Assembly: GCF_000739635.1 (NCBI RefSeq)
Contig: NZ_BATQ01000163.1
Location: 1 to 64,000, forward strand
Origin: Verrucomicrobium sp. BvORR034
GTDB taxonomy: Bacteria > Verrucomicrobiota > Verrucomicrobiia > Verrucomicrobiales > Verrucomicrobiaceae
DNA length: 64,000 nt
Direction: 5' to 3'
Positions 88 through 24,610 of this stretch are shown here, one piece after another; the stretch's first letter is position 1, and each line of letters begins with the position of its first letter. The notes under the pieces were generated by a model. It saw only the letters and a program-made list of their open reading frames with translations, searched no databases and was not told the DNA's origin. A program made the position numbers and the translations under genes.

Positions 88-112
88 GGAGTACCGTCCC
101 GCATGCGGGACC
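88..112 (+). repeat. REP-like palindrome, GTCCCGCATGCGGGAC core
   Basis: GGAG (88-91) is followed by TACC and the perfect palindrome GTCCCGCATGCGGGAC (96-111). The left flank CAGCAGGGTTGGAGTACCG is identical to that of the element at 2588, although the core differs. A GGAG foot next to a palindrome is the architecture of REP elements mobilised by RAYT transposases. Confidence 0.7.
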
Positions 113-410
113 AATGCCATCAGGGAAAAGTGGAGAGGTCGAGCATCTCCCTTTTGTGAAAGTATTGAACCCGGACCTTCGGCCCTTCTGAAAGGGGCTC
201 ACCAGTTACAGTCGTGGCGGATGCGCCATCGCGGCTCCGAGGCTCACCAACGCAAATCAGCAAGGCTATCTATTCCCTGATGGCATTGGCTTTTAAGCGG
301 AATCAGGAAGCGAGTGACCCTTGATAGCGCTCCCGGTGAGTCGCTCCCGACGGGCCAGCGATGGCTTGGGAATCTTGGGCGGGATTTACGCCATGAGACG
401 TGCGGGGCGT

Positions 411-434
411 GATTCCGCTTAAAAGCGGTACTCC
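411..434 (-). repeat. REP-like hairpin, CCGCTTTTAAGCGG core
   Basis: Read on the minus strand this is GGAG-TAC-CGCTTTTAAGCG-GAATC: the same flanks as the GTCCCGCATGCGGGAC elements but with a shorter core (6-bp stem, TT loop). A truncated relative lacking the left arm lies at 289-308. Confidence 0.65.
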
Positions 435-593
435 AACCCCGGCGCGAATATCCACTGGGACAAAGGAACCCACCCCACCCTGCTGAAGCCCTTGCTACCC
501 TTCGTGCCTTCGCGCCTTCGTGTGAAAAAATGCATTCGCCACTCCGGCGGGACGCCAGTGTCACTTTTACTCCTAGAACCAGCAAGAGTTGAA

Positions 594-1229
594 TCAAGAC
601 GCCGGTTCTGACCGCACCTGAATCAACACCCGATCCCTGGGCGTGAACTGGAGCCTGCTCCTGGCTCTGTTCAACCAGGACCAGCGTGACTTCGCGCGCA
701 AGGCCCGGCCCTCGTCCGCGATGAAAACAATACGGCCAGCCTGGCTATCCAGCGGAGGCCGGATGGGGAAATACCGTACGATGACTCCATCAAAGTGGGG
801 CTGCGTATAGGACAGGGTCGCCTCGAACTCGTTGCCGAGATATCGCAACGGCACCTCGCAGACGTAGGTCTGCAGATACCAATCTGGCGGCGGGATGGAG
901 AGACCGTTCCACTTCTTTGCCCGATAGATACGCTTCCCGACGGTGATGGAGGGATCCACAGCAGAATGTGCCCCCTGCTGGGGCGGTTCAAACACGGGAA
1001 CGAGGATCTTGACGAGCGTGTCCTTTGAAACTTTCTCTTCGGTGCTCGTGGTCTCCAGCTTGAATCGGTAGACGCCTTTCACCTGCGACTTCCCTGCTTT
1101 AACGGCAATCGTGACCTCCTCGTGGATCATGGTCGAGGAGAGCTTGCCGTCGTCATACACCATGGGATTGGCCACGGCTTGGACCGCAAGGAGGCAGAGG
1201 GCTAGCAGAGTGTGGATGCAATGGCTCAT
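594..1229 (-). CDS. Secreted protein of unknown function
   Basis: This 211-residue protein begins with a clear Sec signal peptide. Residues 1-20 form a short hydrophobic run (TLLALCLLAVQAV) ending near an ANP cleavage-like site, so it is probably periplasmic or envelope-associated. The mature part alternates polar and beta-prone segments (for example TIAVKAGKSQVKGVYRFKL) and has an aromatic-rich stretch around residues 110-155. The C-terminus turns basic (residues 180-195). I recognise no catalytic motif or named domain. It stands alone on the minus strand between the first repeat block and two small membrane-protein genes, and the start is the only sensible Met before the hydrophobic run. 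Function is unknown; a small beta-sandwich envelope protein is a guess. Confidence 0.6.
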   Translation of the reverse strand: MSHCIHTLLALCLLAVQAVANPMVYDDGKLSSTMIHEEVTIAVKAGKSQVKGVYRFKLETTSTEEKVSKDTLVKILVPVFEPPQQGAHSAVDPSITVGKRIYRAKKWNGLSIPPPDWYLQTYVCEVPLRYLGNEFEATLSYTQPHFDGVIVRYFPIRPPLDSQAGRIVFIADEGRALRAKSRWSWLNRARSRLQFTPRDRVLIQVRSEPAS

Positions 1230-1329
1230 AAGGCGCTACCAGGATTGTACGCTGTATTGACGCTGATGTCTCACGACGAAGAAGATGGCAATGCCAGCGC
1301 CGACGGCGGCGAAAGGCCACGCGGACCCG

Positions 1330-1662
1330 CTAGTGCGGATGGTGATGAGGAAGGGCAAAAGGAAGATCCAGCACAGATCCGCGCCTCCCCCCTTCACCTC
1401 TCAAGAATACCAGCACTTTCCAACCAAAGACGACAACGAGGGGTACAGCAACGAACCCCCACCAACCACTGATCATGGCCGTGAAGAACAGGTAGATGGG
1501 GAAGAACAGCGCCTGCCATCCGATGGCCGCAAAGGACTTGAGGCCATGTGCAAGCAGGAGTGGCGTGAAAGCCCCCAGGGTGCCAACGCCCCACGCAAGC
1601 AACAAACGTACCGGCAAGGAGGCGACGGTCGAGGCAAAGACTTCAGCAGGATCAATACGCAT
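1330..1662 (-). CDS. Small membrane protein of unknown function
   Basis: About 110 residues from the preferred start (MRIDPAEVFAS). A longer reading from 1707 would add 15 residues of unlikely sequence (MECLIDRWSNPP...). Three hydrophobic segments can be seen: about residues 15-38 (LLLAWGVGTLGAFTPLLLA), 43-62 (IGWQALFFPIYLFFTAM) and 67-85 (FVAVPLVVVFGWKVLVFL). The tail is short, basic, then His-rich. This looks like a three-TM inner-membrane protein, similar in size and style to the other small membrane proteins between 1.3 and 4.1 kb. No family is recognised. Because it sits between repeat blocks, it may belong to a locally duplicated and decaying set. Confidence 0.5.
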   Translation of the reverse strand: MRIDPAEVFASTVASLPVRLLLAWGVGTLGAFTPLLLAHGLKSFAAIGWQALFFPIYLFFTAMISGWWGFVAVPLVVVFGWKVLVFLRGEGGRRGSVLDLPFALPHHHPH

Positions 1663-1779
1663 GACAACCAAAGGTGGATTTGACCATCTGTCGATTAAAC
1701 ACTCCATGCCGAATGACGTGAGGTCAATGACATGACACCGGAAATTCTGAGATTCAAAAACCGGGAAGATTCTTCCACC

Positions 1780-2255
1780 TTAGACGGCAACTTCATCTGC
1801 AAGTTCTGGGGACTTGCCAAAACCAAAGTAACGCCGACTGGGACGCCCCAGGATGAAGCGCCATGCCAGGAGGATGATCAGGAAGGCAGCGGTGAAATGG
1901 AAAAGCATGTCCCAAAAAGAGAAGGGAATTTCCTCGGGGGATGTGACAGCCGGAAGGATGCAAAGAGGTAGACTAGCTGATTGCTCCTCACGACAAAGAA
2001 CATCAGCACCGCCGAATTCAAATAGTAGACCCATCGACGGCGACCTCCACAGCACATAGAGAAGATCGCAACGATGACTACGATTGTTGACGCAAACAGA
2101 GGCGGCAGCCTCAGAAACTGACCGAAGGATTTGTCCAAGAAAGCACGAAATAGAATCAGAATAAACACGAAGGTCATGAACCCAAAGATTCCGATCACCC
2201 AACGATGGGAAGCGGGTCTGGGAGGAAGAGATTCAGAACGAGCTGGCGAACTCAT
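1780..2255 (-). pseudogene. Small multi-TM membrane protein, frameshifted
   Basis: The 5' part, starting at MSSPARSESLPPR, encodes three hydrophobic stretches (WVIGIFGFMTFVFILILF, FASTIVVIVAIFSMCC and YYLNSAVLMFFVV) in one frame down to about 1960. That frame then continues as implausible sequence and stops at 1878. In the adjacent frame the reading resumes convincingly with PAVTSPEEIPFSFWDML, another TM segment (AAFLIILLAWRFIL) and the tail RRYFGFGKSPELADEVAV, ending at a TAA at 1780. One base appears to be missing around 1955-1962. The tail is supported independently by a second copy of the same 3' end at 3285-3356 (RRYFGFGKLPKLADEDAI). It may be a true pseudogene or a sequencing error. Function is unknown. 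Confidence 0.55.
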
Positions 2256-2292
2256 CGACTGGCTATGGGAAACGGGAGTTGGAAAGTAAGAT

Positions 2293-2319
2293 GGAGTGCA
2301 GTCTCGCATGCGGGACTGC
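2293..2319 (+). repeat. REP-like palindrome variant
   Basis: GGAGT is followed by GCAGTCTCGCATGCGGGACTGC, an imperfect palindrome with one mismatch that shares the CGCATGCG centre with the other elements but has different outer arms. It lies immediately upstream of the frameshifted membrane-protein gene. Confidence 0.6.
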
Positions 2320-2587
2320 GCCAGGGTGCGGAAGGTGGAATGAGCAATTTAAATATCAACCACCAATAGAGCTGCAACGGATGAGGCGCTGTAACGGAAA
2401 AACACGTGTTTAGAAGGCATTGGGGCGTTGTGTGGGCATGAAACTCAACCACTCCGGCGACGGTTGCCGATTGCCAATCGGCGGCACAGCAGATTGCCAA
2501 TCTGCGCTACGCTGGAGCCAGCCTGCTCCATCGGGCTCCTCCCCGATTGGCACAGCCAAACCATCACCCCCGCTTCGCAGCAGGGTT

Positions 2588-2615
2588 GGAGTACCGCTTT
2601 TAAGCGGAATCAGGA
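2588..2615 (+). repeat. REP-like hairpin, CCGCTTTTAAGCGG core
   Basis: GGAGTA precedes CCGCTTTTAAGCGG (2594-2607), followed by AATCAGGA. The flanks are identical to those at 10492-10525, where the core is the longer palindrome CCGTCCCGCATGCGGGACGG. This is the clearest example of core exchange within constant flanks. Confidence 0.7.
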
Positions 2616-3284
2616 TGCGAATGTCCTTGATATTGCCCGCGGTGGATGCGGGCGACCAGTTGGTGGTTGCCAGGAAGTCCTGGGAAGGATTCACGCCATG
2701 GGACGCGTGAGGAGTGATTCCGCTTAAAAGCCAATGCCATCAGGGAAAACGCATCGTCTTGCTGTTTTGCCTTGGCGCGCCTCGGAGCCGCGATGGTGCA
2801 ACCGCCACGACTGTAACTGGTGAGCCCCTTTCAGAAGGGCCGAAGGTCCGGGTTCATACCAGCCTGGGGCAACGCCCCAGGGATAGATGGCCAAACTACC
2901 CTTGAGGGCTGTAGGCCCGGTGTCATCAAATCTGCCTATGACGAGCATCCCTGAATGACGTCGGGCCTACAGCCCTCAACATCTAAAACGAGCGCCTGCC
3001 TTGGGCGTTGCCCAAGGCTGCAATGATGCCGGACCTTCGGCCCTCAATACTTTCACAAAAGGGAGATGCTCGACCTCTCCCCTTTTCCCTGATGGCATTG
3101 GTCCCGCATGCGGGACGGTACTCCCACCCCGGCGCGGACCTCTTCTGAGACTAAGGACTCCTCACCGCCCTGCTGAAGTCCTTTCAACCCTTCGTGCCTT
3201 TGTGCCCTCGTGTGAGAAACATGCATGCTTCACTCCGGCAATCTGTGCCACGAAGCTGAGCGACTCTACTCCGGCCAAGATGAA

Positions 3285-3356
3285 GTTCTTCCACCTTAGA
3301 TGGCATCTTCATCTGCCAGCTTCGGGAGCTTGCCAAAACCAAAGTAGCGCCGGCTG
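3285..3356 (-). pseudogene. Duplicated 3' end of the 1780-2255 membrane-protein gene
   Basis: Bases 3285-3356 match 1770-1840 closely in the same orientation. Read on the minus strand they encode RRYFGFGKLPKLADEDAI followed by TAA, against RRYFGFGKSPELADEVAV-TAA at the first locus. The similarity continues a few bases past the stop. No 5' portion of the gene is present, so this is an orphan tail directly behind the 3377-3748 gene. It supports the reading frame used for the end of the first copy. Confidence 0.6.
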
Positions 3357-3376
3357 AAGAGATTCGACCGCGGGCC

Positions 3377-3748
3377 CTACAGTTGTCGAGTCTTGAGAAG
3401 AGGGTTGTCCCTCGCCAGGGCATAGTCGTAGGTCATGAACTTGGTGAAGCCCCAGCATCCAAGGGCAAGGAGGACGGCCAGGATTGGATAGATGACCACG
3501 GAAAACGCAGGTCTCTTGCGAAGCTCCCACCAGGCCAGACCCAGCCCGACAACGCCTTCAAAGAGGCAGATGCCCCAGATCAAGGAGGGCGGGTACAACA
3601 GCCGTGCAGATCTATGGTCCAAACTGAAATCCCACACCAGAGTGAGCAGACTGGTCACAGCAAGCGCGGCCACAACAGAGGCCGACAGGACGGCGAGCCT
3701 CAAGACCATGGATGAGGTGTGCGGCTTGGGAAGAGGTGGAGGGTTCAT
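3377..3748 (-). CDS. Small three-TM membrane protein
   Basis: 123 residues from MNPPPLPKPHTSS; an upstream extension to 3859 adds 37 residues with no membrane or domain signal, so I prefer the internal Met. Hydrophobic spans are about residues 15-40 (LRLAVLSASVVAALAVTSLL), 55-75 (SLIWGICLFEGVVGLGLAW) and 82-102 (FSVVIYPILAVLLALGCWGF). The C-terminal loop MTYDYALARDNPLL is polar. The short proline-rich N-terminus resembles that of the neighbouring small membrane proteins. No known family is recognised. Its stop is followed directly by the orphan tail at 3285-3356. Confidence 0.5.
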   Translation of the reverse strand: MNPPPLPKPHTSSMVLRLAVLSASVVAALAVTSLLTLVWDFSLDHRSARLLYPPSLIWGICLFEGVVGLGLAWWELRKRPAFSVVIYPILAVLLALGCWGFTKFMTYDYALARDNPLLKTRQL

Positions 3749-3830
3749 CCGTTGGTGCCGTATTAGGGCCGGGATTGGGCCGGGATAGATGTCGGTTATT
3801 GGAAACTGCACGGAGCACCTGAAGCGACGA

Positions 3831-4133
3831 TCACCCGTCAACGATAGACCGGATGACAAACCGGATGAGGAGTTGCAGGGCGAACTTCACTTCGAGCCAG
3901 AAGAAGCCGATCAAGAAGGCGAAGGGGAAGGTCAGGATGGCGAGGATGACGCCAACGCCAACCCAGACCTCGCCGCCCAAGTAGCCTGCGCCGCTGGAGA
4001 GCACGATAGCGAAGAAGAAGCCGAGGAAGGCCCGCATGCCCAGCTCCATGGTGTCGCCCGCGGCTTCCACGCGGGACCAGAAGGATTTGGGCCTGCGGTT
4101 TTCGCTGCCGCTTTCTGCAGGTGGAAGATTCAT
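3831..4133 (-). CDS. Small two-TM membrane protein
   Basis: 100 residues from MNLPPAESGSENR. The longer reading to 4334 runs into the GATTGCCAATC repeat and is rejected. After a polar N-terminus and an amphipathic stretch (SFWSRVEAAGDTMELG), two hydrophobic segments occupy about residues 34-58 (AFLGFFFAIVLSSGAGYLGG) and 62-85 (GVGVILAILTFPFAFLIGFFW). The end is short and basic. Composition resembles small DUF-type inner-membrane proteins, but I cannot assign a family. It is the last of the 1.3-4.1 kb group of small membrane proteins. Confidence 0.5.
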   Translation of the reverse strand: MNLPPAESGSENRRPKSFWSRVEAAGDTMELGMRAFLGFFFAIVLSSGAGYLGGEVWVGVGVILAILTFPFAFLIGFFWLEVKFALQLLIRFVIRSIVDG

Positions 4134-4228
4134 AGGGTGAACCGCTGAGAGACGGCGGATCGTTTTTACCCAACAGGCCGTCGTTTGGATAGAAGGAAGT
4201 TGGTGGGGCGGTGTCCGGGGAAGCGCGG

Positions 4229-4398
4229 ACTGACCGCTTAAAAGCGAAACTCCAACCCTGCTGGCGGCAGCGCGCGGGTGGATGAATAGGTTTCGGCTCG
4301 GAGTCCACTGATACCGATTGCCAATCGGTGGCACAGCAGATTGCCAATCTGCGCTACGCGGGTCTCCTCAACCAGCGCAGCGTCTCAACCAGCGCAGC
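4229..4398. repeat. Repeat cluster downstream of the EPS export gene
   Basis: A diverged REP-like element (ACCGCTTAAAAGCG...ACTCCAACC, 4231-4255) is followed by the double GATTGCCAATC repeat (4313-4360: CCGATTGCCAATCGG then GCAGATTGCCAATCTGC). A short tandem repeat of CTCAACCAGCGCAG (about 4367-4399) runs up to the stop codon of the next gene. Confidence 0.65.
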
Positions 4399-4968
4399 TC
4401 ACTGCGGCACATGGATCCGGTCACCTGGCTGAGCCTGGATGGCGGCCTCGGCACCATCAGCACGACGGAGGTCGAGCTCGCGGGTCTGGCCGCCGCGGGT
4501 GAACTTCACCTTCTTCATGCCGGCGAATTCGGTGGGGCCGCCGGCGCTGGTGATGGCGTCGTGGATGGTCATGCCGGGAGTGAGGCCGATGCGACCGGGG
4601 GCACGCACTTCACCGCTGACATAAATGACCTGGGTGGCGGCTTCGCGGTTGGGCGTGACCTGGATGGTAGGGTGCGTGAAGATCTCGGCGTGCTTGTACG
4701 CGGACTCGATGTTCTTCTGCAGAGTCGAGGGACGCACACCAGCCGCTTTCATCTCGCCGATGTACGGAAGATTGATGGAGCCGTTGTCGGCGATGTCATA
4801 GCTGTTGGAAACAACAGAGATCTCCTCTGCGGGCACGCCGGAGAGTTTGATGACGATGCTGTCTCCGATGCGCAGGACGGACTCGGTCGTCTGCTGGGCC
4901 ATGGCCTGCCCCAGCATCAGGCTGCTGAGGAGGCCGATGAGGAGGGCTCGGAAAGTGGACGTGCTCAT
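4399..4968 (-). CDS. Polysaccharide export protein (Wza-like, SLBB)
   Basis: 189 residues from MSTSTFRALLIG; the reading could extend into the kinase gene, but the signal peptide fixes this start. The signal peptide (LIGLLSSLMLGQAMAQ) directs it to the periplasm or outer membrane. Residues 28-105 form a Poly_export domain (SVLRIGDSIVIKLSG, GSINLPYIGEMKAAG, then the IQV segment). An SLBB-like segment follows (VIYVSGEVRAPGRIGLTPGMTI, then AGGPTEF) and the end is DRIHVPQ. It is expected to form or gate the outer-membrane channel for an exopolysaccharide. At about 190 residues it is much shorter than E. coli Wza. There is no lipobox Cys, so lipid anchoring is not seen. It lies 37 bp behind the tyrosine-kinase gene and is probably co-transcribed with it. 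Confidence 0.88.
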   Translation of the reverse strand: MSTSTFRALLIGLLSSLMLGQAMAQQTTESVLRIGDSIVIKLSGVPAEEISVVSNSYDIADNGSINLPYIGEMKAAGVRPSTLQKNIESAYKHAEIFTHPTIQVTPNREAATQVIYVSGEVRAPGRIGLTPGMTIHDAITSAGGPTEFAGMKKVKFTRGGQTRELDLRRADGAEAAIQAQPGDRIHVPQ

Positions 4969-5005
4969 AAACGGGAATCCTTTCAGGGTGGACCTTGGCC
5001 TTGGC

Positions 5006-7204
5006 TTAGAACACATCGTCGCCACCAGTGTTGCCACGTTGGCTCCGGGGCTCGGATGCATCCTTGGCCTTGCGTTGTTTCCTTGAAGAAGTCTGGCGTG
5101 TGCCCTTGGGGGCATCGTCGTAGTTGGGCGTGTTGTGGTAGTAGCCGTAGTACGTGGTCTGGTAGCTGTAGTTGCTGTCGCTGCGGATGTCCACGCGGTT
5201 GAGCGCGACGCCGACGATAGAGCCGCCGACCTGCTCAATGGCCTGCTTCACACGGCCGAGGATGTGTCGTGGGATCTTGCGGTGCTGCACGACGATGAGG
5301 GTCATGTCGGCCTCTGCCGAGAGCACGCTGGCATCGCTGACGCCGAGAATGGGCGGGGAGTCGATGAGCACGAGGTCAAAGCGGCTCTTCATGTCCGCGA
5401 TGAGATCCGTGAACTTCTGGGAGTTCAACAGGCTCGCGCAGTCGGCGGGCATGATGCCGCTGGGCAGGAGGTAGAGATTGTCCACCTGAGTCTGCACCAC
5501 CACTTCCTCCAGAGGCACGTTTCCGGTGAGGTAGTTGCTGAGGCCAAAGTTGTGCGGCACATCAAAGAAGGTGTGCTGGCGGGGGCGGCGCATGTCTGCA
5601 TCGATGATCAGGGTGGTGTATCCCGCCTGGGCACAGACGGTGGCGAGGTTCACCATGGTGGTGCTCTTGCCTTCACCGGGGCTGCCGCTGACCACGCTGA
5701 TGCAGTTGGCACTCATGTCCTTGCGGTTGAACTCGATGTTCGTGCGCAGGATGCGGTAGGCCTCGGCATCGGGCGTGACGCCGCTGGAGCGGTGCAGGAT
5801 GCCCACGCCTTTGGGGATCACGGCCAGCACGGGCACGCCCATGATGGACTCGACCTCATCCATGCTCTTCACACTGGTGTCGAGGTACTCAAGGAAGAAG
5901 GCCAAACCGAGGCCGCAGAGCAGGCCGACCACTCCGCCAAGGAGCAGGTGCAGGCGCACATTGGGCTTCACCGGTGCCGATCCGGGCTCCGCTGCCTGGT
6001 ACACGGTCACAGGGGTCTTGGTCATCTGCTGGTCGATCTGCTTCTGCGAAAGCGTGTCCTTCAGACGGGTGACGTCCTGGCGGAGAATCTCCCATTCCCG
6101 CTGGGCGGCGAGGAACTCCTGGTGATCTGTCTGGGCCTGGATGGAGGTGTCCTTCTGATTGTCCCGCATGCGCTCGGCCTCGGTGAGCTGCTTCTGCGCA
6201 GTCTCCACGCGGAAGGTGAGGTTCTTGCGATAGTCCTCCGCCGCCTCCAGCAGCATGCCCCGGGTCTGCAGGATGGAGTCGGCAATGCCCTTCATGGTGG
6301 GGTGCTTGGGGCCGAGACCGGCATTGCCCAAGTTTTTCTGCGAGATCAGGAGGTCCTGGTAGGTGGGGCCGAGTTTCTTGATGGTCTCGTTCTCCACCCG
6401 CAGCTCACCCGCCTGGCGGATGAGGTCATCCCCTTGCAGGGAGCGGAGTTGCTCAATCTGCGCGGTCATGTCGCGGATCTCGCGCTGGATTCTGCTGACG
6501 TCCTTGATGGTGTCCACCAGGGAGCTGCTCTCCGGCGTGGAGACGTCATCCTGGTTGGCGGCGCGGCCCACGGAGCCGGGCATCTCCACGATGCCGAGAC
6601 GCTTCTTGATATCCAGCACCTTGGCAAGCGCCTGGGTGGCCTGCTCTTCCTTCGCAGTGATCTGGGCGGTGATCTGGGCCAGCGCCTTGTCCGTGCGCTC
6701 GTTGTCGAGCGCCAGCCGGGTTTCCTTGTAACTCTCTGCGATCGAGTTGGCGATGTCTGCGGCCAGCTTGGCGTCCTCGTCGAAGTACTCCAGCGTGATG
6801 AAGTCACTCTTCATGCTGCTCTGGGGCTCCAGATTCCCCATGAGCTTGCCGGCGGCGGCGGCCTTGTTAGGGGCGTTCCACCGGGCCACAAGGTCGAGCT
6901 TGTCCACCACCCGGTCGAGGGTTTTGCGCTTGGAGAGAATCTCGAACTGGGTCTTGAGGAAGCCGTCGGTGGACACGGCGAGGGCATCGCCCATGTGGCC
7001 GATGACGCGGGCATCACTCTGTACCCGCTCGATGACCATCTCCACCCGGCCCACGTACTTGCGCGGCATGATGTAGGTGATGATGGCCGCGACGCTGAAG
7101 ACGAGGAGGAAGGCGAGAAAGATCAATCCAAGCCGGTTGCGGACGATCTGCCAGTAGTCCTGGGCGTGGCGCTGGATCTCAAGACGGTTGGGCGTCGTGC
7201 TCAT
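5006..7204 (-). CDS. Wzz/Wzc-type exopolysaccharide co-polymerase and BY-kinase
   Basis: 732 residues. A first TM lies near residues 27-50 (LIFLAFLLVFSVAAIITYI), then a Wzz domain and a long coiled-coil periplasmic region (about 130-385), a second TM near 420-445 (LLLGGVVGLLCGLGLAFFLEY), and a cytoplasmic tyrosine-kinase domain. Its motifs are Walker A SGSPGEGKST (about 503-513), Walker A' IIDADMRRP (about 532-540) and Walker B LVLIDSPP (about 610-617). A Tyr-rich cluster near 678-694 (YSYQTTYYGYY...NY, seven Tyr) is the likely autophosphorylation tail, and a basic, polar stretch follows it. The protein should control chain length and export of an exopolysaccharide with the adjacent Wza-like protein. 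Both parts are fused in one chain, as in proteobacterial Wzc, rather than split as in Firmicutes. Confidence 0.92.
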   Translation of the reverse strand: MSTTPNRLEIQRHAQDYWQIVRNRLGLIFLAFLLVFSVAAIITYIMPRKYVGRVEMVIERVQSDARVIGHMGDALAVSTDGFLKTQFEILSKRKTLDRVVDKLDLVARWNAPNKAAAAGKLMGNLEPQSSMKSDFITLEYFDEDAKLAADIANSIAESYKETRLALDNERTDKALAQITAQITAKEEQATQALAKVLDIKKRLGIVEMPGSVGRAANQDDVSTPESSSLVDTIKDVSRIQREIRDMTAQIEQLRSLQGDDLIRQAGELRVENETIKKLGPTYQDLLISQKNLGNAGLGPKHPTMKGIADSILQTRGMLLEAAEDYRKNLTFRVETAQKQLTEAERMRDNQKDTSIQAQTDHQEFLAAQREWEILRQDVTRLKDTLSQKQIDQQMTKTPVTVYQAAEPGSAPVKPNVRLHLLLGGVVGLLCGLGLAFFLEYLDTSVKSMDEVESIMGVPVLAVIPKGVGILHRSSGVTPDAEAYRILRTNIEFNRKDMSANCISVVSGSPGEGKSTTMVNLATVCAQAGYTTLIIDADMRRPRQHTFFDVPHNFGLSNYLTGNVPLEEVVVQTQVDNLYLLPSGIMPADCASLLNSQKFTDLIADMKSRFDLVLIDSPPILGVSDASVLSAEADMTLIVVQHRKIPRHILGRVKQAIEQVGGSIVGVALNRVDIRSDSNYSYQTTYYGYYHNTPNYDDAPKGTRQTSSRKQRKAKDASEPRSQRGNTGGDDVF

Positions 7205-7364
7205 GGCAAGGGGTCAATTTGAGAAAGCTCCGGCCCTCGTTCCCGGGACGGTGGCACAGGGGTCCGGCAGTGCACCATACCTCATACCAGCCGCAGCGGC
7301 TCCACCTTTCCGCAGAGTGCGGGGGAGGCTCTGCCCGGATGCGGCGTTCATGGGCGGGAGTGGC

Positions 7365-8672: not shown

Positions 8673-8696
8673 GGTCTGATGCCCGCGGGGAGAATC

Positions 8697-10290: not shown

Positions 10291-10789
10291 GGTCAGGGAT
10301 AGATGGGAGCGGTGGGGCGGTTAGGCGTGCTGGGTAGATGGGAGTTGGTCCCTTCGGAGCCCAGTGCGTCAGTGGGCAGTGCGTCAGTACATCAGAAGGG
10401 GGTGGTTTGGGAGTGATGGGTGTTGGAGCACGCCGAATGTGAACAGGGCGGTGGATGCTCTAGCTGGTGAGTCCAGGTCCGCGCCGGGGTTGGAGTACCG
10501 TCCCGCATGCGGGACGGAATCAGGATTCGTTCGGCCCTTAAAGGTTGCTCGCGCTGGGACACGCCCGCCCGGCCAGCGACGGCGTAGCCCAGATTGGCAA
10601 TCGGCACGGATGGCAAGAGCGGAGAAGATGTATTCTCACACGAAGGCACGAAGAGTTGAGGCCCTTGGAAAAGCAGGCGGGGCTCCCAGCCCCGCTCACT
10701 CTCTGCCCCGCCCCAGCATCCAGCATCGCAGGCTGAAGCCTGTACTCCCTACAGCTTCAGCCCCAACACCTTGACCACTGACGCACCGC
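10291..10789. repeat. Intergenic repeat mosaic
   Basis: About 500 bp with no credible gene between the TPR gene and the ABC exporter. It holds a perfect REP-like element (10492-10525), an inverted GATTGCCAATC phrase (about 10589-10603), and an inverted copy of the CTTCGTGCCTTCGTGTGA phrase (10633-10655). Near both ends the phrases GTGCGTCAGT and TGACGCAC occur. Several modules are shared with 430-540, 3118-3238 and 27380-27450. Confidence 0.7.
10492..10525 (+). repeat. REP-like palindrome, 20-bp perfect core
   Basis: GGAG (10492-10495), TA, then CCGTCCCGCATGCGGGACGG (10498-10517), a perfect 20-bp palindrome, followed by AATCAGGA. This is the best-preserved copy in the window. Confidence 0.75.
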
Positions 10790-16549: not shown

Positions 16550-16560
16550 GCGTTAAAGAA

Positions 16561-16615: not shown

Positions 16616-16811
16616 GGGTGGGGACCAGACCACATCGCCAGGGCTGATCTCCTCTAGGGGCCCGCCTTCGCACTGCGTCCTGCCCAATCCAGAGGTGACA
16701 ATAGTGGTCTGGCCGATCGGGTGGGTGTGTTATTGTCCTCTGGAAGAATGCTGGCCTGCAAGCTTGAGACCAAGCGCAACCCGCATGCTCCCAGAAACTG
16801 CCGTCGGGGCA

Positions 16812-17910: not shown

Positions 17911-17960
17911 GGTGAGCCCACGGTACCCCGTTGAGCCCCCGCCTGCTCTCGCGGTTCTGC

Positions 17961-18950
17961 TCAGCCTGTCGCGATTCTGCTAAAATCGTCTGGAGACACA
18001 TCGATCTTCGTCCTCTCCCGGTATTCGTGAGGGCTGAGCCCTGTCTCCTTGCGAAACACATGGGCGAAATGGCTGGGGCTGGTGTAGCCTACATCCATGC
18101 CGATCTCGATGATGGGCTTCGAGGTATCGCGTAGAAGCTCCTGCGATTTCGACATTCTGAGACGGATGAAATACTGGGAGGGCGAGAAACCGGTATTGCC
18201 CTTGAACAGGCGGGAAAAGTGCGACTCGCTCATCTTGATCGCCGCCGCCAGTTCTCCAATGTTGATTCCTTGATCCAAGGACACCTCCATCATCTTCAAA
18301 ACCCGGTGCAAATGAAACGCAGGAAGTGAGGTGGCACGATGGTGACGCGGGTTTTCATCGTCCCGGTAGGCTCGGACGAGGTGCGTCGCCAGACTCTGAG
18401 CGATCCCTTGCACGAACGACGGGCTGGCCTCTTTTTGCTCGCAAAGCTCCTGCCGCAGCATCTCCAGGAAGGCGACTATCACGGGTTCCCGGATGCCATT
18501 GAACTCTTTCAACTGAGGGGCTCTAGCACTTGCCCCCAAGAGCTCTTTCGCAGCCCGCCCAAAAAGCGGGAGCCCGATCGTGGCGTGCATGACCACAATT
18601 GGGTCCGGTCCGGTGGACTTCCAACGGAGCTCGTAAGGGTCCGGTGAGGTGATCAAGAACAGAGCCCCTGGCTCCACCAGATGCGTGTTCCATTCTCCCC
18701 CCAACTCCCTGTCTTCACAAACGACATGGCCGGAAATCTGCCAGTGCAGTTGCGGCTCGGCCACAGCAGGGATGAGCATCGTCTTCCCCACCGCCGGCCT
18801 CGTATGAATCTCGACAAGGATGTTCTGCCACGCCGGCCCCTCCCCCAAGTGGATCATCTTCCCCGGGAAGTACTTGCGGTGCTCCTCAGCAGATGTGCGG
18901 GGCGGAACTTCCATCGCCGTCACGATAGCCAGTATTACTTCTTGAGGCAA
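17961..18950 (-). CDS. AraC-family transcriptional regulator
   Basis: 329 residues. The N-terminal part (about 20-190) is a cupin-like effector domain of the AraC type that binds a small ligand (LGEGPAWQNILVEIHTRPA, then HWQISGHVVCEDRELGGEW and LVEPGALFLITSPDPYELRW). The C-terminal part (about 220-322) has two helix-turn-helix motifs: NIGELAAAIKMSESHFSRLFK and PIIEIGMDVGYTSPSHFAHVFRKETGLSPHEYR. The gene lies 50 bp upstream of the disrupted hydrolase on the same strand. AraC regulators paired with such hydrolases usually control them, so this one may have lost its target. The start at MPQEVILAIVTAMEV is the farthest upstream; a later Met at residue 13 is possible. Confidence 0.88.
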   Translation of the reverse strand: MPQEVILAIVTAMEVPPRTSAEEHRKYFPGKMIHLGEGPAWQNILVEIHTRPAVGKTMLIPAVAEPQLHWQISGHVVCEDRELGGEWNTHLVEPGALFLITSPDPYELRWKSTGPDPIVVMHATIGLPLFGRAAKELLGASARAPQLKEFNGIREPVIVAFLEMLRQELCEQKEASPSFVQGIAQSLATHLVRAYRDDENPRHHRATSLPAFHLHRVLKMMEVSLDQGINIGELAAAIKMSESHFSRLFKGNTGFSPSQYFIRLRMSKSQELLRDTSKPIIEIGMDVGYTSPSHFAHVFRKETGLSPHEYRERTKIDVSPDDFSRIATG

Positions 18951-19123
18951 CTCGCAAACGGACCGCGTCGGAGGCTACTGACCTGCAACGGGGCAGAACA
19001 ACTAAATGCCTCTTGACTGACGACGGGGAAATCACAAACCGGGCAGCGGGAGCATTCTTTCCAAGACGAGATTGCGATTACTTACTTGGCTTGGCAAGCA
19101 CAGCCTATCTTCTTAGAGTTCAA

Positions 19124-19891
19124 TCAGAACACCTCCACCCAAGGCAGACTCAACGCGTGAAAGTAGGGTCCGAAACCTTCCCTCACGATCGTGGCCACCA
19201 TCTGCACAAAAGCCTCCCGCTGGCCGTGGACGTGGTCTGCATCCAACGCCTGATAGTAGGCCAGGCGACGCTCCACGGGCAAGATGGCTGGCGGGAAGCC
19301 TGCCTTCATGAACTCCAGGTTCATGAGCAACCGTGAGGTTCTCCCGTTTCCATCCACAAAGGGATGGTTCTTCACGAAATCGCTGTGCACCCGAGCGGCA
19401 CGCTCGACGGGGTGCAGACTCATCGCCTCGGTCTGATACCAGGCGATGAAACGCTCCATCAACTCCGGCACCACGACCTGATCAGGCAGCAGATGATTGG
19501 CGCCGGCAATACGCACGTTGATCGTGCGATAGCGCCCTGCATTGTCGTCATCGATCCCCTTCAGGATCAACTGATGGATCGACTTGATCCCCCACTCGCT
19601 CAGCGGTTCGTTCTGCTGCACGAGTTCCTCAAGGTAGAGGATGGCATTCCGGTGATTCACGGCTTCCAGATGCTCACGGAGCGTCTTGCCCCCAATCGTA
19701 ATCCCCTCAAGCGCCACCTTGGTTTCCTGTAGTGTGAGCGTGTTGCCCTCGATGGCGTTGGAATGGTAAGTCCAGCGGACGATGAGATCCTCCCGCAAAT
19801 TGCGGACAATGGCCGGATCCAGAGGTCGATGCTGATCGAGCCTAGCTTTGAGGCGGTCAATGTCTGGAAAGGCGTGCATGACTTGGTTCAC
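19124..19891 (-). CDS. Fic-domain protein (putative AMP transferase)
   Basis: 255 residues. The Fic core motif HPFVDGNGRTSR (about residues 163-174) matches the HxFx(D/E)GNGRxxR consensus with all catalytic residues present. The N-terminal inhibitory helix motif (S/T)xxxE(G/N) is present as SNAIEG (about 43-48), which marks an auto-inhibited Fic with the inhibitory helix in the same chain. The expected activity is transfer of AMP from ATP to a hydroxyl side chain of a target protein. There is no separate antitoxin gene alongside, in agreement with an internal inhibitory motif. The C-terminal segment (about 178-255) is helical and has no recognised winged-helix. An in-frame Met at residue 5 is an alternative start. 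Confidence 0.92.
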   Translation of the reverse strand: MNQVMHAFPDIDRLKARLDQHRPLDPAIVRNLREDLIVRWTYHSNAIEGNTLTLQETKVALEGITIGGKTLREHLEAVNHRNAILYLEELVQQNEPLSEWGIKSIHQLILKGIDDDNAGRYRTINVRIAGANHLLPDQVVVPELMERFIAWYQTEAMSLHPVERAARVHSDFVKNHPFVDGNGRTSRLLMNLEFMKAGFPPAILPVERRLAYYQALDADHVHGQREAFVQMVATIVREGFGPYFHALSLPWVEVF

Positions 19892-20100
19892 TCACACTTT
19901 CACCCGATGCAGCCTCGTCAGCAAGCTTTGCCTCAGACGGCGCCTTCAGCGCATCGAAATTGGAGCAGCTATTGATGCCTGCGCCTCTCAACCGAAGGAT
20001 CGTTTGATGCAAAGGCAATATCGGAAAGTAGCACCACCTTTGGGGGAAACGATGACTCGTCCGAAGAGTCTTAAATGTTCTCTCTTCAGGAGAGAGAAAG
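19892..20100. other. Gap between Fic gene and tRNA-Arg
   Basis: About 210 bp. A perfect 7-bp hairpin on the minus strand just past the tRNA (TTCTCTC-CTGAA-GAGAGAA, about 20079-20097) may terminate or trim the tRNA transcript, although no long T-run follows. Nothing else is recognised. Confidence 0.4.
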
Positions 20101-20174
20101 CGCACCCGTCAGGATTCGAACCTGAAACCTTCTGATCCGTAGTCAGATGCTCTAATCCGTTGAGCTACGGGTGC
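20101..20174 (-). tRNA. tRNA-Arg (anticodon ACG)
   Basis: On the minus strand the acceptor stem GCACCCG/CGGGTGC carries discriminator G. The D arm is AGCTC..GAGC, the anticodon stem-loop TCTGA-CTACGGA-TCAGA gives anticodon ACG, and the T arm is TCAGG-TTCGAAT-CCTGA. The 3' CCA is not encoded, in contrast to the tRNA-Gly of this window. Confidence 0.96.
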
Positions 20175-20558
20175 TTGTGTCGTTCGCAGATCGTGTCGGC
20201 GAGGGATTGGAAGAATAGGCGGAAAGCGGTTTTTGTCAAACAGAGGGCAGAGATTTTTTCAGATTTTTTTGAGGCCCGGGAAGTTGAGTGCGAAGAGGTT
20301 GGAGGGGGCTGAAAATGCTGCGATCCCGTTCAGGTGAAGCAGCTTGCAACTCGGACTGGCTGACCCGTTTCGGCTGCCTAGCTTCGGCCAACCTCATGAA
20401 TCCTTCGTGCCTTTGTGTGAGGATACAGATCTTCCTATCCAGCGAACGATGCCGATTGCCAATCTGCGGCACAGCAGATTGCCAATCTGCGCTACGCTAT
20501 CAGCCGGTCCCTGACCTCATGTCTGGAGTCTGATGTCTGGCAGTCTGGTGTCTCCCCC
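20175..20558. repeat. Intergenic region with repeat modules
   Basis: 384 bp with no gene. It contains the CTTCGTGCCTTTGTGTGA phrase (20403-20420), a double GATTGCCAATC repeat (20450-20498), and short direct repeats of GTCTGGAGTCTG-type sequence (20520-20552) just downstream of the next gene's stop. The upstream half is T-rich and probably holds the tRNA-Arg promoter. Confidence 0.6.
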
Positions 20559-21677
20559 CTAAATTCTCGGCTTGGGCGAACCCTTACTCTGGAGCGTCGC
20601 GGCGAGGTCGCCGGAGGCCAGCACGGGGAGCAGTTCGTAGCGGGGCTTGGGCGTGTAGGCGGGGTCGTCGAGGATCTTCACGCAGATGTCCCAGGCGAAG
20701 TCCACCAGCGGTGGGACGTGAACGGTGGCGTCGATCTCTGAATTCACCACGAGGCTGAGGCCGCCGCCGTTGCCAGGGTTGCCATCGAGTCCGAGGATCA
20801 GAAGGGAGTCACGAACGGGCGGCTGGGCGGCACGAGCCGCACGGGCAGCGCCGAAGGCCATGAAATCGCTGTGGCAGAAGACGACATCGAACTGCTTCTG
20901 CAAGCGCAGAGCGTCGTTGAACCGATAACCGGCTTCTTCCGCCGCCCAGTTGGCGGGGGCGTCATGCACCAGGACCACGCCGGGGGCTTTCTTGAGCGCG
21001 GCCTGAAAGGCGGTGGACACCCCTTTGGAATACGCATTGCCCTCCGGCCCGGTGATCTGCACCACCCGGCCAACGGTCTCCGGCCGCCCCTCCTCCGCGG
21101 ACTTCTGCTGCAAGGCGGAGACGACAAAGTTCCCGGCCATCTCACCGATCTTGGCCTCGTCCACAAAGAGGGCGGTGGTGCAGGCCTTCTCCGGCAGGTC
21201 CTTGGAAAACGCGATGATGGTGACGCCAGTGGCCTTCAATTCAGTGAGGACGGGCACAAGTGCCAGAGCATCCACCGGGAACACGAAGAGATGCGTGGCC
21301 CCTTGGGAAACCTGTGTGCGTATCTGGGCAATCTGACGTTGCACGTCTCCCAGGGCCATGATCTGCACCAGATCCACCCCGGCCCGGGTCCGGACGAGAC
21401 GCTCGGTCAGCACCTGCTGGAAGTTTTGCATGGGGGTCTCCAGCGAGTCCAGGAACACCACCACCTTCGACCGCTTGGGAGCCTCCTTGCCAAACACCCC
21501 CTTCTTCTCCGGTAGTAGAGGGGCGGCGGGATCCGGCTGCGGCTGGGTACGATCCCGCTTCTTGCACCCCAGAATCGACACCCCCGCCCCTACGGCCAGA
21601 CCAAGGCGTCCCAGCATCGCAAGGGCAGCGCGGCGGCTAGCGGGCTCTGAAGGCGTGTCGGACGGGGGCATCAGCAT
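20559..21677 (-). CDS. Sugar ABC transporter substrate-binding lipoprotein
   Basis: 372 residues. The N-terminus has twin Arg (ASRRAALAMLGRLGLAVGAGVSILGC) followed by a lipobox-like ILGC with Cys near residue 38, so export by Tat or Sec and lipid anchoring are likely. The mature protein is a Peripla_BP_4 type I binding fold: SKVVVFLDSLETPMQNFQQVLTERLVR; GATHLFVFPVDALALVPVLTELKATG; VGRVVQITGPEGNAYSKGVSTAFQAAL; FDVVFCHSDFMAFGAARAA; and ILGLDGNPGNGGG. This fold binds ribose-, galactose- or xylose-type sugars. No permease or ATPase gene is adjacent, so it is an orphan. Starts at 21677 and 21671 (Met3) are both possible. GC-rich coding is like its neighbours. Confidence 0.88.
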   Translation of the reverse strand: MLMPPSDTPSEPASRRAALAMLGRLGLAVGAGVSILGCKKRDRTQPQPDPAAPLLPEKKGVFGKEAPKRSKVVVFLDSLETPMQNFQQVLTERLVRTRAGVDLVQIMALGDVQRQIAQIRTQVSQGATHLFVFPVDALALVPVLTELKATGVTIIAFSKDLPEKACTTALFVDEAKIGEMAGNFVVSALQQKSAEEGRPETVGRVVQITGPEGNAYSKGVSTAFQAALKKAPGVVLVHDAPANWAAEEAGYRFNDALRLQKQFDVVFCHSDFMAFGAARAARAAQPPVRDSLLILGLDGNPGNGGGLSLVVNSEIDATVHVPPLVDFAWDICVKILDDPAYTPKPRYELLPVLASGDLAATLQSKGSPKPRI

Positions 21678-21837
21678 CCCGCCATTTTGAACCGCGATGG
21701 CGCGAGATCAAAATCACAAAATTTGAAAATGATCTATCCGGATACCAGACGGCCGGACACCAGACCTCAGTTTAGCAGGCTGCCACCGGCACACTGCCCC
21801 TTTTCCCTCTTTAGTCCCTTATCCCTTTTCCCTCATC

Positions 21838-22944
21838 TCACGGGCGCGCTTCCAGGATCATGTTGAACGGCGTCTCTGCGGCGCGGCGGATGCGGGTGAA
21901 CCCGGCTTCCTCCAACACCTTGCGCAGGCGGGCCTCACCGGCCTGGGCCCCCAGGGCGACGCCCAAGCCCTGACTCATGGCGCAGGGAGTGCAAATCATG
22001 GTGGAGAAGGCATAGAACACGCGGCCCACGGGATTCAGGTTCGCGGAAAGTGAATCGCCCGCCATGGGCTCCACCAGCATCCAGGTACCGTCCGGCTTCA
22101 AGTGCCGGCAGATCTGGGCGGCCACTCCCACGGGGTCGCCCATGTCGTGCAGAGCATCGAACACCGTGACGAGGTCGTATTCATGCCCAGTGAAATTCTT
22201 GGCCGAAGCTACGGCGAACTTGAGGTTGTCCAGCCCGGCATGCTGGGCCTTGCGATTCGATTCCTCGATCGATTCCGCATGCAGGTCGAAGCCGGTGAAC
22301 TTCGACTTGGGGAAAGCCCGCGCCATGATGAAGGTGGAAGCCCCCCAGCCACACCCGACATCGGCCACATGGGCCCCGCGCTCCAGCTTGGCAATCACCC
22401 CATCCAGCGCAGGCAGCCAGTGGTGTACGATGTTGGCCTCATAGCCTGGGCGGAAGAAGCGCTCCGTTCCGCAGAAGAGGCAGTTGTGGTGGTCGCCCCA
22501 GGGAATACCTCGCCCGGTGCGAAACGCAGTCTCCACCTGCGGTTCATCGATGTAGATGGACGCCATCGCAAAGTAGCCACCGACCATGGCCGCGGGGCTG
22601 TTGGGGTCCGCCAGCACCGCGGCCTGCTCCGGGTTCATGGAAAAAGTCTCAGTGGCAGAATCATAGTCCACGTAGCCTGAGGCCGCCTGGCAGGCGAGCC
22701 ACTCGCGCACATAACGCTCGTAGCACTGGGTGCGCTCCGCCAGTTGGGTGGAGGTCGCAGGGCCCTGCCCGGCCAGGGCGGCATAGAGACCGAGCCGGTC
22801 CCCCAGCAATACGAGGGCGCCACTGGCAGCGGCCCCGAGGTCCCCCACCATCTTGCCCACGAAGGCGTTCAGTTTTTTCTCATCCACCGGCGGCATGGCG
22901 GCAGATGACCCGGTTGACGAAGCTGGCAGGGTAGAAGTTTGCAT
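21838..22944 (-). CDS. Class I SAM-dependent methyltransferase with N-terminal winged helix
   Basis: 368 residues from MQTSTLPASSTG; the upstream 22 residues are poor. The N-terminal part (about 20-105) is a winged-helix dimerisation domain like that of O-methyltransferases and Rv2258c-type proteins (GALVLLGDRLGLYAALAG, ATSTQLAERTQCYERYVREWLACQ). The Rossmann methyltransferase domain begins near residue 172 with SAM motif I VADVGCGWGAS. It is followed by acidic motif II FTGFDLHAESIEESN, motif IV DLVTVFDALHDMGDP and ICRHLKPDGTWMLVEP. The C-terminus ends FTRIRRAAETPFNMILEARP. The substrate is unknown. The gene is monocistronic on the minus strand. Confidence 0.88.
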   Translation of the reverse strand: MQTSTLPASSTGSSAAMPPVDEKKLNAFVGKMVGDLGAAASGALVLLGDRLGLYAALAGQGPATSTQLAERTQCYERYVREWLACQAASGYVDYDSATETFSMNPEQAAVLADPNSPAAMVGGYFAMASIYIDEPQVETAFRTGRGIPWGDHHNCLFCGTERFFRPGYEANIVHHWLPALDGVIAKLERGAHVADVGCGWGASTFIMARAFPKSKFTGFDLHAESIEESNRKAQHAGLDNLKFAVASAKNFTGHEYDLVTVFDALHDMGDPVGVAAQICRHLKPDGTWMLVEPMAGDSLSANLNPVGRVFYAFSTMICTPCAMSQGLGVALGAQAGEARLRKVLEEAGFTRIRRAAETPFNMILEARP

Positions 22945-23497
22945 GGCGGCGGATTGGGTTCGATGAACTAAAATCGCAAAGTCTTCCAGAAGGGGCATCC
23001 TCGGAAACAAAGGGAAGCGTCTGGCAACGCGGGCTCAGCAGCGACAGCGGCACCTCCAAGGCCTCCCCCTCTTTGGCGGACGGAACGACCATGAACACAG
23101 TCCGGGCAAAGGCCCAGGCTGGACTGTGTTGAGTCCCGTCGAACCGGCTCCGAGGCAGCTTCTTCGTGCACTCCGTGGCCTCCTCTTTGGTGATCGTTTT
23201 GAGGATACCAAATTCCACTACCCATGGCAAGACGGCCTCAAACAACACCCGAATTCGGACGCGAATAAAAATATTTCAGCCAGTTTTTGAGTCCTCTGTC
23301 GATTTTGCTCGACCTCGATATGGTAAATCCTTTAAAAACTCATGCGGCACCCTGAGAATTCACTCTCCAAATTCTAAGAAATCCCCCTCATTATTGAGGT
23401 TTATTTTAGAATTCCGAAATACTTGTTGCCGATTCGCTGAAAAATTGGTAATTTCGGCCCAAGTTTATAAAAATCAAACCGGAGGGTCCGAGTTTCC
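22945..23497. other. Long intergenic region, AT-rich on its right half
   Basis: About 550 bp between divergent genes. The left half contains a minus-strand reading (22880-23248) whose first 50 residues look protein-like (VVEFGILKTITKEEATECTKK), but it overlaps the methyltransferase start and has no family, so I leave it unannotated. The right half (23250-23497) is unusually AT-rich (for example AAATACTTGTTGCCGATT) and probably carries the promoter of the 23498 gene. No clear promoter pair is seen. Confidence 0.4.
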
Positions 23498-24286
23498 ATG
23501 TTCTGCCAACTCTTCAAAAGGCGTGTCAGAGCGCATGCTGAGCGGCTGTTTCATTTTCTCCTTCCGCACGGATTTTCCGGCGAGATATTTCTCTGTGGGA
23601 GTGCCTTTAAGCCCCTGCTCAAGAAGAGCCTGCCCGTGCATGATGTGGACCTCTGGGTGCGCACGGCTGAGGACCGGATGAAGCTCTGCCAGGCCCTGAT
23701 TCAGCGTGGGGCCTCCTTGGTGCCCGATGCCCAGCACCCACACGCACTCAAATTCCGCCTGGAAGGTCATCTCATAGAGATCACCTGCAACGCGGTGCAC
23801 GATGGCACCCTCTCCGATGTGGTGCACACCTATGAGCTGGCCGTGCACGGGCTGGGAGTTCACTACAAAAACGGCGCGCTGATCGACACCTGCGTAAGCC
23901 CGGAATGCTGGGATGCCGTGTGGCACCGGCAGGTGAAGGTGATGCCTGCTTATGTCTGCCTGCTCATGATGATGAAGCCCGCCTGCCTTATCCGCACTCT
24001 GCACCGCATGGGGCAGGAAGCGGCCGAGCTGGGCTTCGACGTGCATGTGGATGAGGAGCACCGCCTCTGGGAGATCTACTGGCACGACTACTCTGAGGAA
24101 GAACGGAAGGCCGCCATGGACCTCTACTTTGAGACCACCGTGTGCCACAAGAGCCAGCACCACTACCATGTGGTGCGCCGGGGGACCATTGGACTGGTCA
24201 TGACGCCTGCGCCAGCGCATGCCCCGGCCCAGGCAGGTGCCAGCGGAAAGGTGCAGACACGCCAGCTCCGGCCGAAGGTGGCCTAG
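23498..24286 (+). CDS. Nucleotidyltransferase-fold protein of unknown substrate
   Basis: 262 residues. Residues 28-60 contain the pattern of the nucleotidyltransferase superfamily: IFLCGSAF (GS helix start), then an Asp pair in VHDVDLWVR (D-V-D about 20 residues later). A third acidic strand could be EGHLIEITCN. The middle (about 90-175) is helical, with His- and Cys-rich segments (LIDTCVSPECWDAVWHRQVKV). The last 35 residues are Ala/Pro-rich and disordered. The fold and metal-binding Asp pair suggest nucleotide transfer or a toxin/antibiotic-type MNT activity, but the substrate is unknown and no partner antitoxin gene is adjacent. The start is at the first Met after an AT-rich leader. Confidence 0.6.
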   Translation: MFCQLFKRRVRAHAERLFHFLLPHGFSGEIFLCGSAFKPLLKKSLPVHDVDLWVRTAEDRMKLCQALIQRGASLVPDAQHPHALKFRLEGHLIEITCNAVHDGTLSDVVHTYELAVHGLGVHYKNGALIDTCVSPECWDAVWHRQVKVMPAYVCLLMMMKPACLIRTLHRMGQEAAELGFDVHVDEEHRLWEIYWHDYSEEERKAAMDLYFETTVCHKSQHHYHVVRRGTIGLVMTPAPAHAPAQAGASGKVQTRQLRPKVA

Positions 24287-24610
24287 AGGGTTCGTGGCGC
24301 TTGGTTGCGAGGATGGAGGCATGATGAGCAGTGTCGGAAAATGAGTGGGTAAGGGGCAAACTTCAATGCCTGCGACTGATTCCGTCCCGCACGCGGGACG
24401 GTACTCCAACCGTGCTGCGGACGTCTTTAGTACACTGAATGGGAAGTCGCGCTGTTCGCGGCTGCTGCCTGCGAGCAGGGCAAAGGGACTTCCAAGCCTC
24501 ATGAGAAGGCCCGCGGCGTGGTTGGAGCACCGTCCCGCGTGCGGGACGGAATCAGTCGCGCAAAAAACCCAGCGTAATTATTATACCTCGAACCCGCAAA
24601 ACGAAGCCCC
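24287..24610. repeat. Inverted pair of REP-like elements between genes
   Basis: 324 bp with no gene. Two REP-like elements face each other: on the minus strand at 24378-24408 (core CCGTCCCGCACGCGGGACGG) and on the plus strand at 24524-24557 (core CCGTCCCGCGTGCGGGACGG). Both have GGAG feet and AATCAG/TGATT flanks. They are about 125 bp apart, giving a REPIN/BIME-like arrangement. The inner segment contains CGCGCTGTTCGCGGCTGCTGCCTGCGAGCAG-type GC hairpins. Confidence 0.75.

Follow-up and report, generated by a model that had tools for sequence, protein, structure and literature searches.

Core replacement at orthologous loci suggests that the hairpin core of GGAG-foot REP elements is an exchangeable module in Verrucomicrobium

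Short palindromic elements that share a foot but differ in their cores are scattered through a 64,000-nt stretch of DNA (hereafter, the window) from Verrucomicrobium sp. BvORR034 (G000, 8.58 Mb; "this genome" below), and they were compared here with their counterparts in two further Verrucomicrobium genomes, BvORR106 (G002) and G003. The elements are REP-like, as a preliminary description of the window had proposed, and have the layout of repetitive extragenic palindromic (REP) hairpins, with a GTTGGAG foot (containing the GGAG tetranucleotide), a 2-nt spacer, a 5-bp stem, a TTYA loop, and a tail. Its proposal that whole cores could be swapped while the flanks stay conserved was borne out at orthologous loci. 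On balance, we favor the reading that the hairpin core is an exchangeable module in GGAG-foot REPs, that it is probably copied between inverted neighbors by short-patch template switching, and that a longer core entered through an insertion sequence (IS). Loci were mostly collected by motif, while a 464-kb sample of this genome was chosen regardless of motif.

Across the three genomes, one foot carries six compensatory stems of the form CCG-NN-TTYA-N'N'-CGG plus the long TCCCGC core TCCCGCATGCGGGA, which forms a seventh class. Most TTNA-loop REPs (289 of 302) fell into the six perfect inner stems, i.e., CC (99), AC (79), CT (52), CG (32), CA (20), and TC (7), and 13 had a single imperfect inner pair. 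The preliminary description had envisaged two exchangeable cores and outlined a genome-wide search for them; that search revealed at least seven core classes, with CTTTTAAG being just the member with the CT stem. A bimodal two-core system is thus ruled out by the six perfect stem classes together with the long-core class, and a smooth continuum of cores by the discreteness of the six. Stem class is partly linked to the tail (AC with CTCA, CT with AATCA), and the CC class and the long core are found with both spacers and with many tails, five or more in the case of the long core.

Replacement of the core was seen directly where the same locus could be aligned between genomes. At 24377-24554 of the window, the flanks and the spacer between the two REPs align closely along their whole length with locus L392 of G003, and the cores differ: the minus-strand REP has TCCCGCGTGCGGGA in this genome and CCTTTAGG in G003, and its plus-strand partner, also TCCCGCGTGCGGGA here, reads TCCCGCATGCGGGA-(368-bp element)-CCTTTAGG in G003. 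At this 24.4-kb locus, the REP pair was absent from BvORR106, where there is a contig break. At L208:5819 (C160:25821), this genome has the long core and both BvORR106 and G003 have CCTTTAGG, so that the long core is derived in this lineage, and the inverted companion at L208:6251 likewise has the long core here, each of the two relatives having a core of CC type. Similarly, the long core at L072:1411 corresponds to CTTTTAAG in BvORR106. At two loci of this genome, both members of an inverted group have the long core. Among reciprocal-best orthologous pairs, the stem class was kept in 44 of 49 and changed in five, four of which involve the long core and one an imperfect single-pair variant; TTYA stems are stable over the distance between these genomes. 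Further candidate swaps were rejected: closer alignment of two of them, the IS-foot core at L111/L151 and ACTTTAGT versus CGTTTACG at L113/L151, revealed local duplication and a different orthologous foot, and L114 proved paralogous to L299 of G003, L112 being the ortholog.

A second line of evidence comes from neighboring REPs (within 250 bp of each other), which are inverted far more often than direct (102 vs 19), a pairing like that of REP doublets forming hairpins (REPINs) and bacterial interspersed mosaic elements (BIMEs). Inverted neighbors had the same core class much more often than chance predicts in all three genomes, namely in 12 of 24 pairs in this genome (4.8 expected), 21 of 30 in BvORR106 (10.0), and 30 of 48 in G003 (16.2), whereas the same tail was shared, in the same order, by 6 (4.1 expected), 6 (4.7), and 11 (8.3), with no clear excess. 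Direct-repeat neighbors had no excess of core sharing in any of the three genomes. Even inverted pairs with different tails were concordant in their cores in BvORR106 (16 of 24 vs 9.3 expected) and G003 (24 of 37 vs 14.4). This concordance, specific to the core and dependent on orientation, tells copying between inverted neighbors apart from movement of whole elements. As a separate matter, 22 comparisons of pairs, which include some redundancy, did not show an inverted spacer between partner REPs to be a general feature; a lone suggestive case is window 85-437 against L182:2793-2928, in which the inter-REP spacer looks inverted in BvORR106 and the foot-to-tail pairings exchanged.

The long core is in turn connected with elements that interrupt the hairpin. 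These inserts bear 17-nt terminal repeats (CCAATGCCATCAGGGAA) and are mostly 371 or 325 bp long, and the count of insert ends was 94 for G003, 37 for G002, and about 29 for this genome, where many of them coincide with contig ends. At 1,688 and 1,734 bp, two G003 copies (L374 and L376) are full-length and code for an IS4-family transposase, which matches the NCBIfam model transpos_IS4_1 at 177.7 bits against a cut-off of 115. IS4-type elements have a DDE transposase and generate target duplications of 7-14 bp. By its transposase model, terminal inverted repeats, and 8-bp duplications, the insert is an IS4-family insertion sequence accompanied by short derivatives resembling miniature inverted-repeat transposable elements (MITEs). 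In clean copies, the 8-bp target duplication is the REP core NNTTYANN itself (recorded as GCTTCAGC, GCTTTAGC, CCTTTAGG, CCTTCAGG, CTTTTAAG, and CTTTTGAG), and thus the IS cuts symmetrically about the center of the hairpin. One 2,133-bp copy (L375, G003:C1:1516100-1519300), flanked by a duplication of CCTTTAGG, contains a frame for a reverse transcriptase (Pfam RVT_1, 119 bits). Within the 371-bp derivative of the window, inverted matches to Rfam Acido-Lenti-1 (RF01687) at 2836-2881 (-, 23.1 bits) and 2999-3044 (+, 28.4 bits), both below the gathering threshold of 37, suggest that mobile repeats are the source of some Acido-Lenti-1-like "RNAs".

Where the insertion is in a CCG-type REP, the core is in most cases TCCCGCATGCGGGA on the foot side and a TTYA core on the tail side. 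The foot-side long core occurs with either orientation of the insert, which rules out that it is a fixed end of the IS, although one orientation is favored, and with such skew, spread may partly have been as a linked unit. Predicted single-strand folding energies were -1.1 kcal/mol for a split TTYA half and -6.1 kcal/mol for a split long-core half, against -4.5 to -5.8 kcal/mol for intact TTYA hairpins and -10.1 kcal/mol for the intact long core; the long core on an interrupted half may be stable because it is predicted to fold alone, the TTYA half being left with no real hairpin. Uninterrupted and IS-adjacent long-core palindromes numbered 31 vs 17 in this genome, 6 vs 3 in G002, and 5 vs 31 in G003. 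Hybrid tail-side cores (e.g., CGTTTAGG) were considered as products of loop recombination, but point mutation suffices to explain them, given an average divergence of 2.6% between MITE copies.

We hypothesize that, during replication, the nascent strand would anneal to an inverted neighbor through the shared foot and outer stem, which is all that annealing would need, copy the palindrome there, and return; with one arm templating the other, the whole palindrome would be replaced in a single event. The long core would have entered the population via IS-interrupted REPs, in which the 5-bp stem is broken while TCCCGCATGCGGGA could still fold on itself, and would then have spread to uninterrupted REPs, mainly in this lineage. 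This entry route is suggested by the abundance of IS-adjacent long cores in G003 relative to this genome and by the 24.4-kb locus. Template switching during movement mediated by REP-associated tyrosine transposases (RAYTs) had been among the preliminary suggestions; template switching remains a good candidate, since inverted neighbors share cores and not tails, but no RAYT link to the swap itself emerged, the long core being tied to IS4-family insertion instead. Template switching is known to homogenize the arms of inverted repeats in yeast (PMC8604942), and a 1988 review by Higgins et al. had already asked in its title whether REPs evolve by gene conversion (cited in PMC3116915). At L209:13386-13399 (C160:53386), a long-core hairpin has a tail on both sides (CCTGCGACTGATTCCG-TCCCGCATGCGGGA-CGGAATCAGTCGCAGG), as if a fold-back copy of the tail had overwritten the foot.

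Several points weigh against copying between inverted neighbors with IS-borne entry of the long core. The swaps are few and the clear ones all concern the long core, for which alone in-place exchange is demonstrated, and no intermediate was caught by what is a comparison of sequences. At 24.4 kb, the IS-bearing state of G003 could be derived rather than ancestral, BvORR106 being without the REP pair. The foot side of the IS nearly always bears the long core, which template switching leaves unexplained. In this genome, core concordance among inverted pairs with different tails was not significant (7 of 18 vs 5.1 expected), and concordance overall could stem from pairs arising together as REPINs, though tails should then match, as they also should if pairs had simply been duplicated as units, and they do not. 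Finally, the RAYT gene that was found beside REPs flanks a CAG-stem family, and none of the six RAYT-like genes was flanked by the CCG-stem class.

Other explanations account for parts of these data. Each uninterrupted long-core REP could be the scar of an IS, left when an IS or MITE with a foot-side TCCCGC core had inserted and was then deleted together with the tail-side TTYA core, giving CCG-TCCCGCATGCGGGA-CGG. Such a footprint would agree with the G003 ortholog of 24521, which is exactly TCCCGC-IS-CCTTTAGG where this genome has TCCCGC alone, and with long cores being mostly IS-adjacent in G003 and mostly uninterrupted here; yet the partner REP at 24403 is swapped too with the IS in neither species, the relatives are without the IS at L208:5819 and L072:1411, and the deletion would require a homology-free join, so we consider this origin possible but doubtful. 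Alternatively, each core could mark its own REP or REPIN family spread by a RAYT, apparent swaps being independent insertions into the same spot. Several REP classes per genome are normal and classes switch between relatives (PMC3686654), and this genome has six RAYT-like genes that are intact or almost so, but this seems unlikely when the flanks that adjoin the swapped core match fully or almost fully over tens of bases on either side, swapped loci have neither target duplication nor second copy, the foot is identical in all classes, and the long core alone combines with so many tails and both spacers.

Selection might also produce concordant cores, if inverted REPs must pair with each other in a long DNA or RNA hairpin and their cores co-vary by compensatory mutation. 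Both the concordance among inverted and not direct neighbors in three genomes and the strong compensatory variation within each hairpin would be expected, but such a hairpin would also pair the tails, which show no co-variation, and the 8-to-14-base change from CCTTTAGG to TCCCGCATGCGGGA is impossible by point substitution, which makes selection on pairing quite improbable as the cause. We give as little credence to a dedicated exchange in place of accidental template switching, for example one in which single-stranded REP intermediates made by a RAYT would anneal at other REPs by the common foot and tail and rewrite cores in place, inverted partners being corrected together.

RAYT-like (Y1 transposase) genes of full-length scale numbered six in this genome, one with an internal stop (L245). 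The Y1_Tnp gene at C31:321-659 has an HVH motif and a GGAG-TA-CAGGC-TTCA-GCCTG hairpin at each side, and the same CAGGC hairpin adjoins its G003 homologue. The C31 protein matches Y1_Tnp, scores above the cut-off of an NCBIfam IS200/IS605 model and below that of REP_Tyr_transpos, and has IS200/IS605-type transposases as its neighbors in the PDB. GGAG-foot REPs are probably recognized by an IS200-like RAYT transposase. The RAYT-like genes L241, L242, L244, L245, and L246 have their own flanking inverted repeats of ~40-80 nt, unrelated to the CCG-stem REPs.

The abundance and regularity of the elements were evident in the 464-kb sample, in which a search allowing any foot, spacer, or loop recovered 17 GGAG-N2-5bp-TTYA hairpins at spacer 2, one hairpin at spacer 3, and none at 0, 1, 4, or 5, and five first-order Markov controls contained no GGAG-N2-5bp-TTYA hairpins. 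The loops TTTA and TTCA and the foot GGAG predominated over all other loops and feet, GGAG preceding NN-5bp-TTYA in 16 perfect-stem matches and the next foot, GTAG, in 3. Genome-wide, GTTGGAGTACCG had 92 exact copies (~1 expected for a 12-mer), and GTTGGAGTAC-N(8-38)-GGAATCA occurred 25 times (11 + 14 with fixed tail) against 0 for a reversed-pattern control; 119 REPs were parsed in the part of this genome that was retrieved. The elements agree with REPs in having a short palindrome (20-40 bp in REPs), a copy number in the range of tens to hundreds per genome, a conserved GTAG/GTGG/GGAG-like tetranucleotide 5' of the palindrome, and inverted pairs, and those with CCG stems and TTYA loops match the REPtron Mb type in their 2-nt spacer, perfect 5-bp stem, and TTNA loop, the long-core class lacking the loop feature. 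The element is abundant in G000, G002, and G003, whereas other genera of the family show no more than background. Stems CCGCC and CCGGC with this foot and loop appeared in metagenome-assembled genomes of Planctomycetes and a few other genomes, including GTTGGAG-T[AC]-CCG[CG]C-TTYA hairpins at L131-L194 (Planctomycetia assembly JACOUI01 and others), often in dense or tandem clusters, and hence foot and loop span phyla.

Among known systems, REP_Mb of Marinomonas sp. MWYL1 (TnpAREP group 3) has two bases between its tetranucleotide and a perfect stem of 5 bp, and a T-T-N-A loop required for cleavage, which takes place at CT or CA (PMC8266576). The elements here resemble it in the tetranucleotide foot, the 2-base spacer, the 5-bp perfect stem, the TTTA loop with a free third base (TTYA here), and CT/CA dinucleotides in the 3' tail (here CTCAG and AATCA). 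They differ in their foot, GGAG instead of GTAG, which goes with many stem classes and also with a long core that has no loop; in situ core exchange is not described for REP_Mb, and the Marinomonas system is experimental whereas that of Verrucomicrobium is known from sequence. The preliminary view that no such system had been described was too broad, since alternative stems and loops under one tag (PMC3733652) and class changes (PMC3686654) were already on record. In the part of the former source considered here, one tag of the GTAG/CGTC families can go with different complementary residues in the stem and with several loop formats side by side, much as in the GGAG REPs, and the GTAG-1/-2 families combine a conserved tail with an unpaired dinucleotide; Opitutus terrae (Verrucomicrobia) is among the reported hosts (PMC3733652). 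That same part, however, names no GGAG-tagged families and reports neither core replacement at orthologous loci nor concordance of partners.

In the REP "orthoswitch", the REP class beside an orthologous RAYT changes between relatives by a mechanism that was only speculated on (PMC3686654); there, REPs beside RAYT genes change with genome-wide class replacement, whereas here single dispersed loci change their core and keep their flanks. REP-targeting insertion sequences are also known, including ISRm22 (IS4 family), IS1397, IS621, and others (PMC1525189). ISRm22 is alike in being an IS4-family element that enters REP hairpins with direct repeats, but in the present case the 8-bp duplication is the hairpin core, MITE-like deletions make up most of the copies, and on the foot side a 14-bp palindrome has usually taken the place of the core. 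As in inverted-repeat homogenization, imperfect arms would be made identical in a single event, although that process concerns short-spacer repeats and the REP arms here lie 50-440 bp apart and exchange the whole palindrome (PMC8604942). We found no description in the open-license literature of core-only replacement at single orthologous loci, of partners concordant in core and not tail, or of a second core tied to an IS. REP class change has been an open question (PMC3686654) and is readable here at single orthologous loci with polarity, REP evolution is linked to an IS for which the hairpin serves as target site, and these questions are approachable in culturable Verrucomicrobium strains.

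In the window itself (Table 1), pattern searches recovered all ten sites of the preliminary description, each within a few bases and well above chance, with four matches to GTTGGAGTAC-N(8-38)-GGAATCA and none in 100 shuffled windows. The sites at 411, 2588, 4231, 10492, 24382, and 24530 are whole elements, while those at 88, 289, 2716, and 3101, listed as separate elements, are halves of two split REPs with one flank apiece. The core ascribed to 24382 and 24530 needed amending to GCGTGC in place of GCATGC, a variant common to both partners; the "variant with different arms" at 2293 turned out to represent another REP stem family (GGAG-TG-CAG...CTG), and the variant at 4231 owes its distinctness to a GTCAG tail and a TT spacer. 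At the locus of BvORR106 compared with window 290-305 (L182:2922), the REP has CTTTTAAG without interruption. Eight of the 12 window sites lie outside any ATG-started frame of at least 80 aa, and the other four overlap unverified frames, genes being unannotated.

Table 1. REP elements, REP halves, and insertion sequence derivatives in the window
Position	Strand	Feature
85..110	+	REP foot half, GTTGGAG-TA-CCG plus long core TCCCGCATGCGGGA; cut by insert 111-289
111..289	.	179-bp MITE-like IS derivative; terminal inverted repeats CCAATGCCATCAGGGAA / TTCCCTGATGGCATTGG
290..305	+	REP tail half, core CTTTTAAG plus CGGAATCA; same split REP as 85..110
410..437	-	Intact REP, stem class CT (CCGCTTTTAAGCGG), tail AATCA; inverted partner of split REP 85-305
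2293..2318	+	CAG...CTG stem-family REP with TCCCGC-like core, GGAG-TG-CAGTCTCGCATGCGGGACTG
2585..2612	+	Intact REP, stem class CT, tail AATCA
2715..2730	-	Tail half (TGATTCCG-CTTAAAAG) of second IS-split REP
2731..3101	.	371-bp MITE-like IS derivative with two inverted Acido-Lenti-1-like hairpins
3102..3127	-	Foot half of second IS-split REP, core TCCCGCATGCGGGA
4231..4256	-	REP of class CT, spacer TT (GTTGGAG-TT-TCGCTTTTAAGCGG-TCA)
10489..10522	+	Intact long-core REP CCGTCCCGCATGCGGGACGG, tail AATCA
10729..10748	-	CAG-family REP GGAG-TA-CAGGC-TTCA-GCCTG; same type as flanks the RAYT gene of contig C31
24377..24410	-	Intact REP, long core TCCCGCGTGCGGGA; core of G003 ortholog (L392) CCTTTAGG
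24521..24554	+	Inverted partner REP, also TCCCGCGTGCGGGA; G003 ortholog TCCCGCATGCGGGA-(368-bp element)-CCTTTAGG

Other repeats are present in the window as well. Another interspersed palindromic family (TGCCGATTGCCAATCGGCGGCACAGCAGATTGCCAATCTGCGCTACGC), with variable arms around GATTGCCAATC, occurs at 2465-2513, 4312-4360, 20450-20498, and 27472-27497, and a 231-nt direct repeat at 29847-30322 has two copies that are 91% identical and 245 apart, with nested inverted repeats inside.

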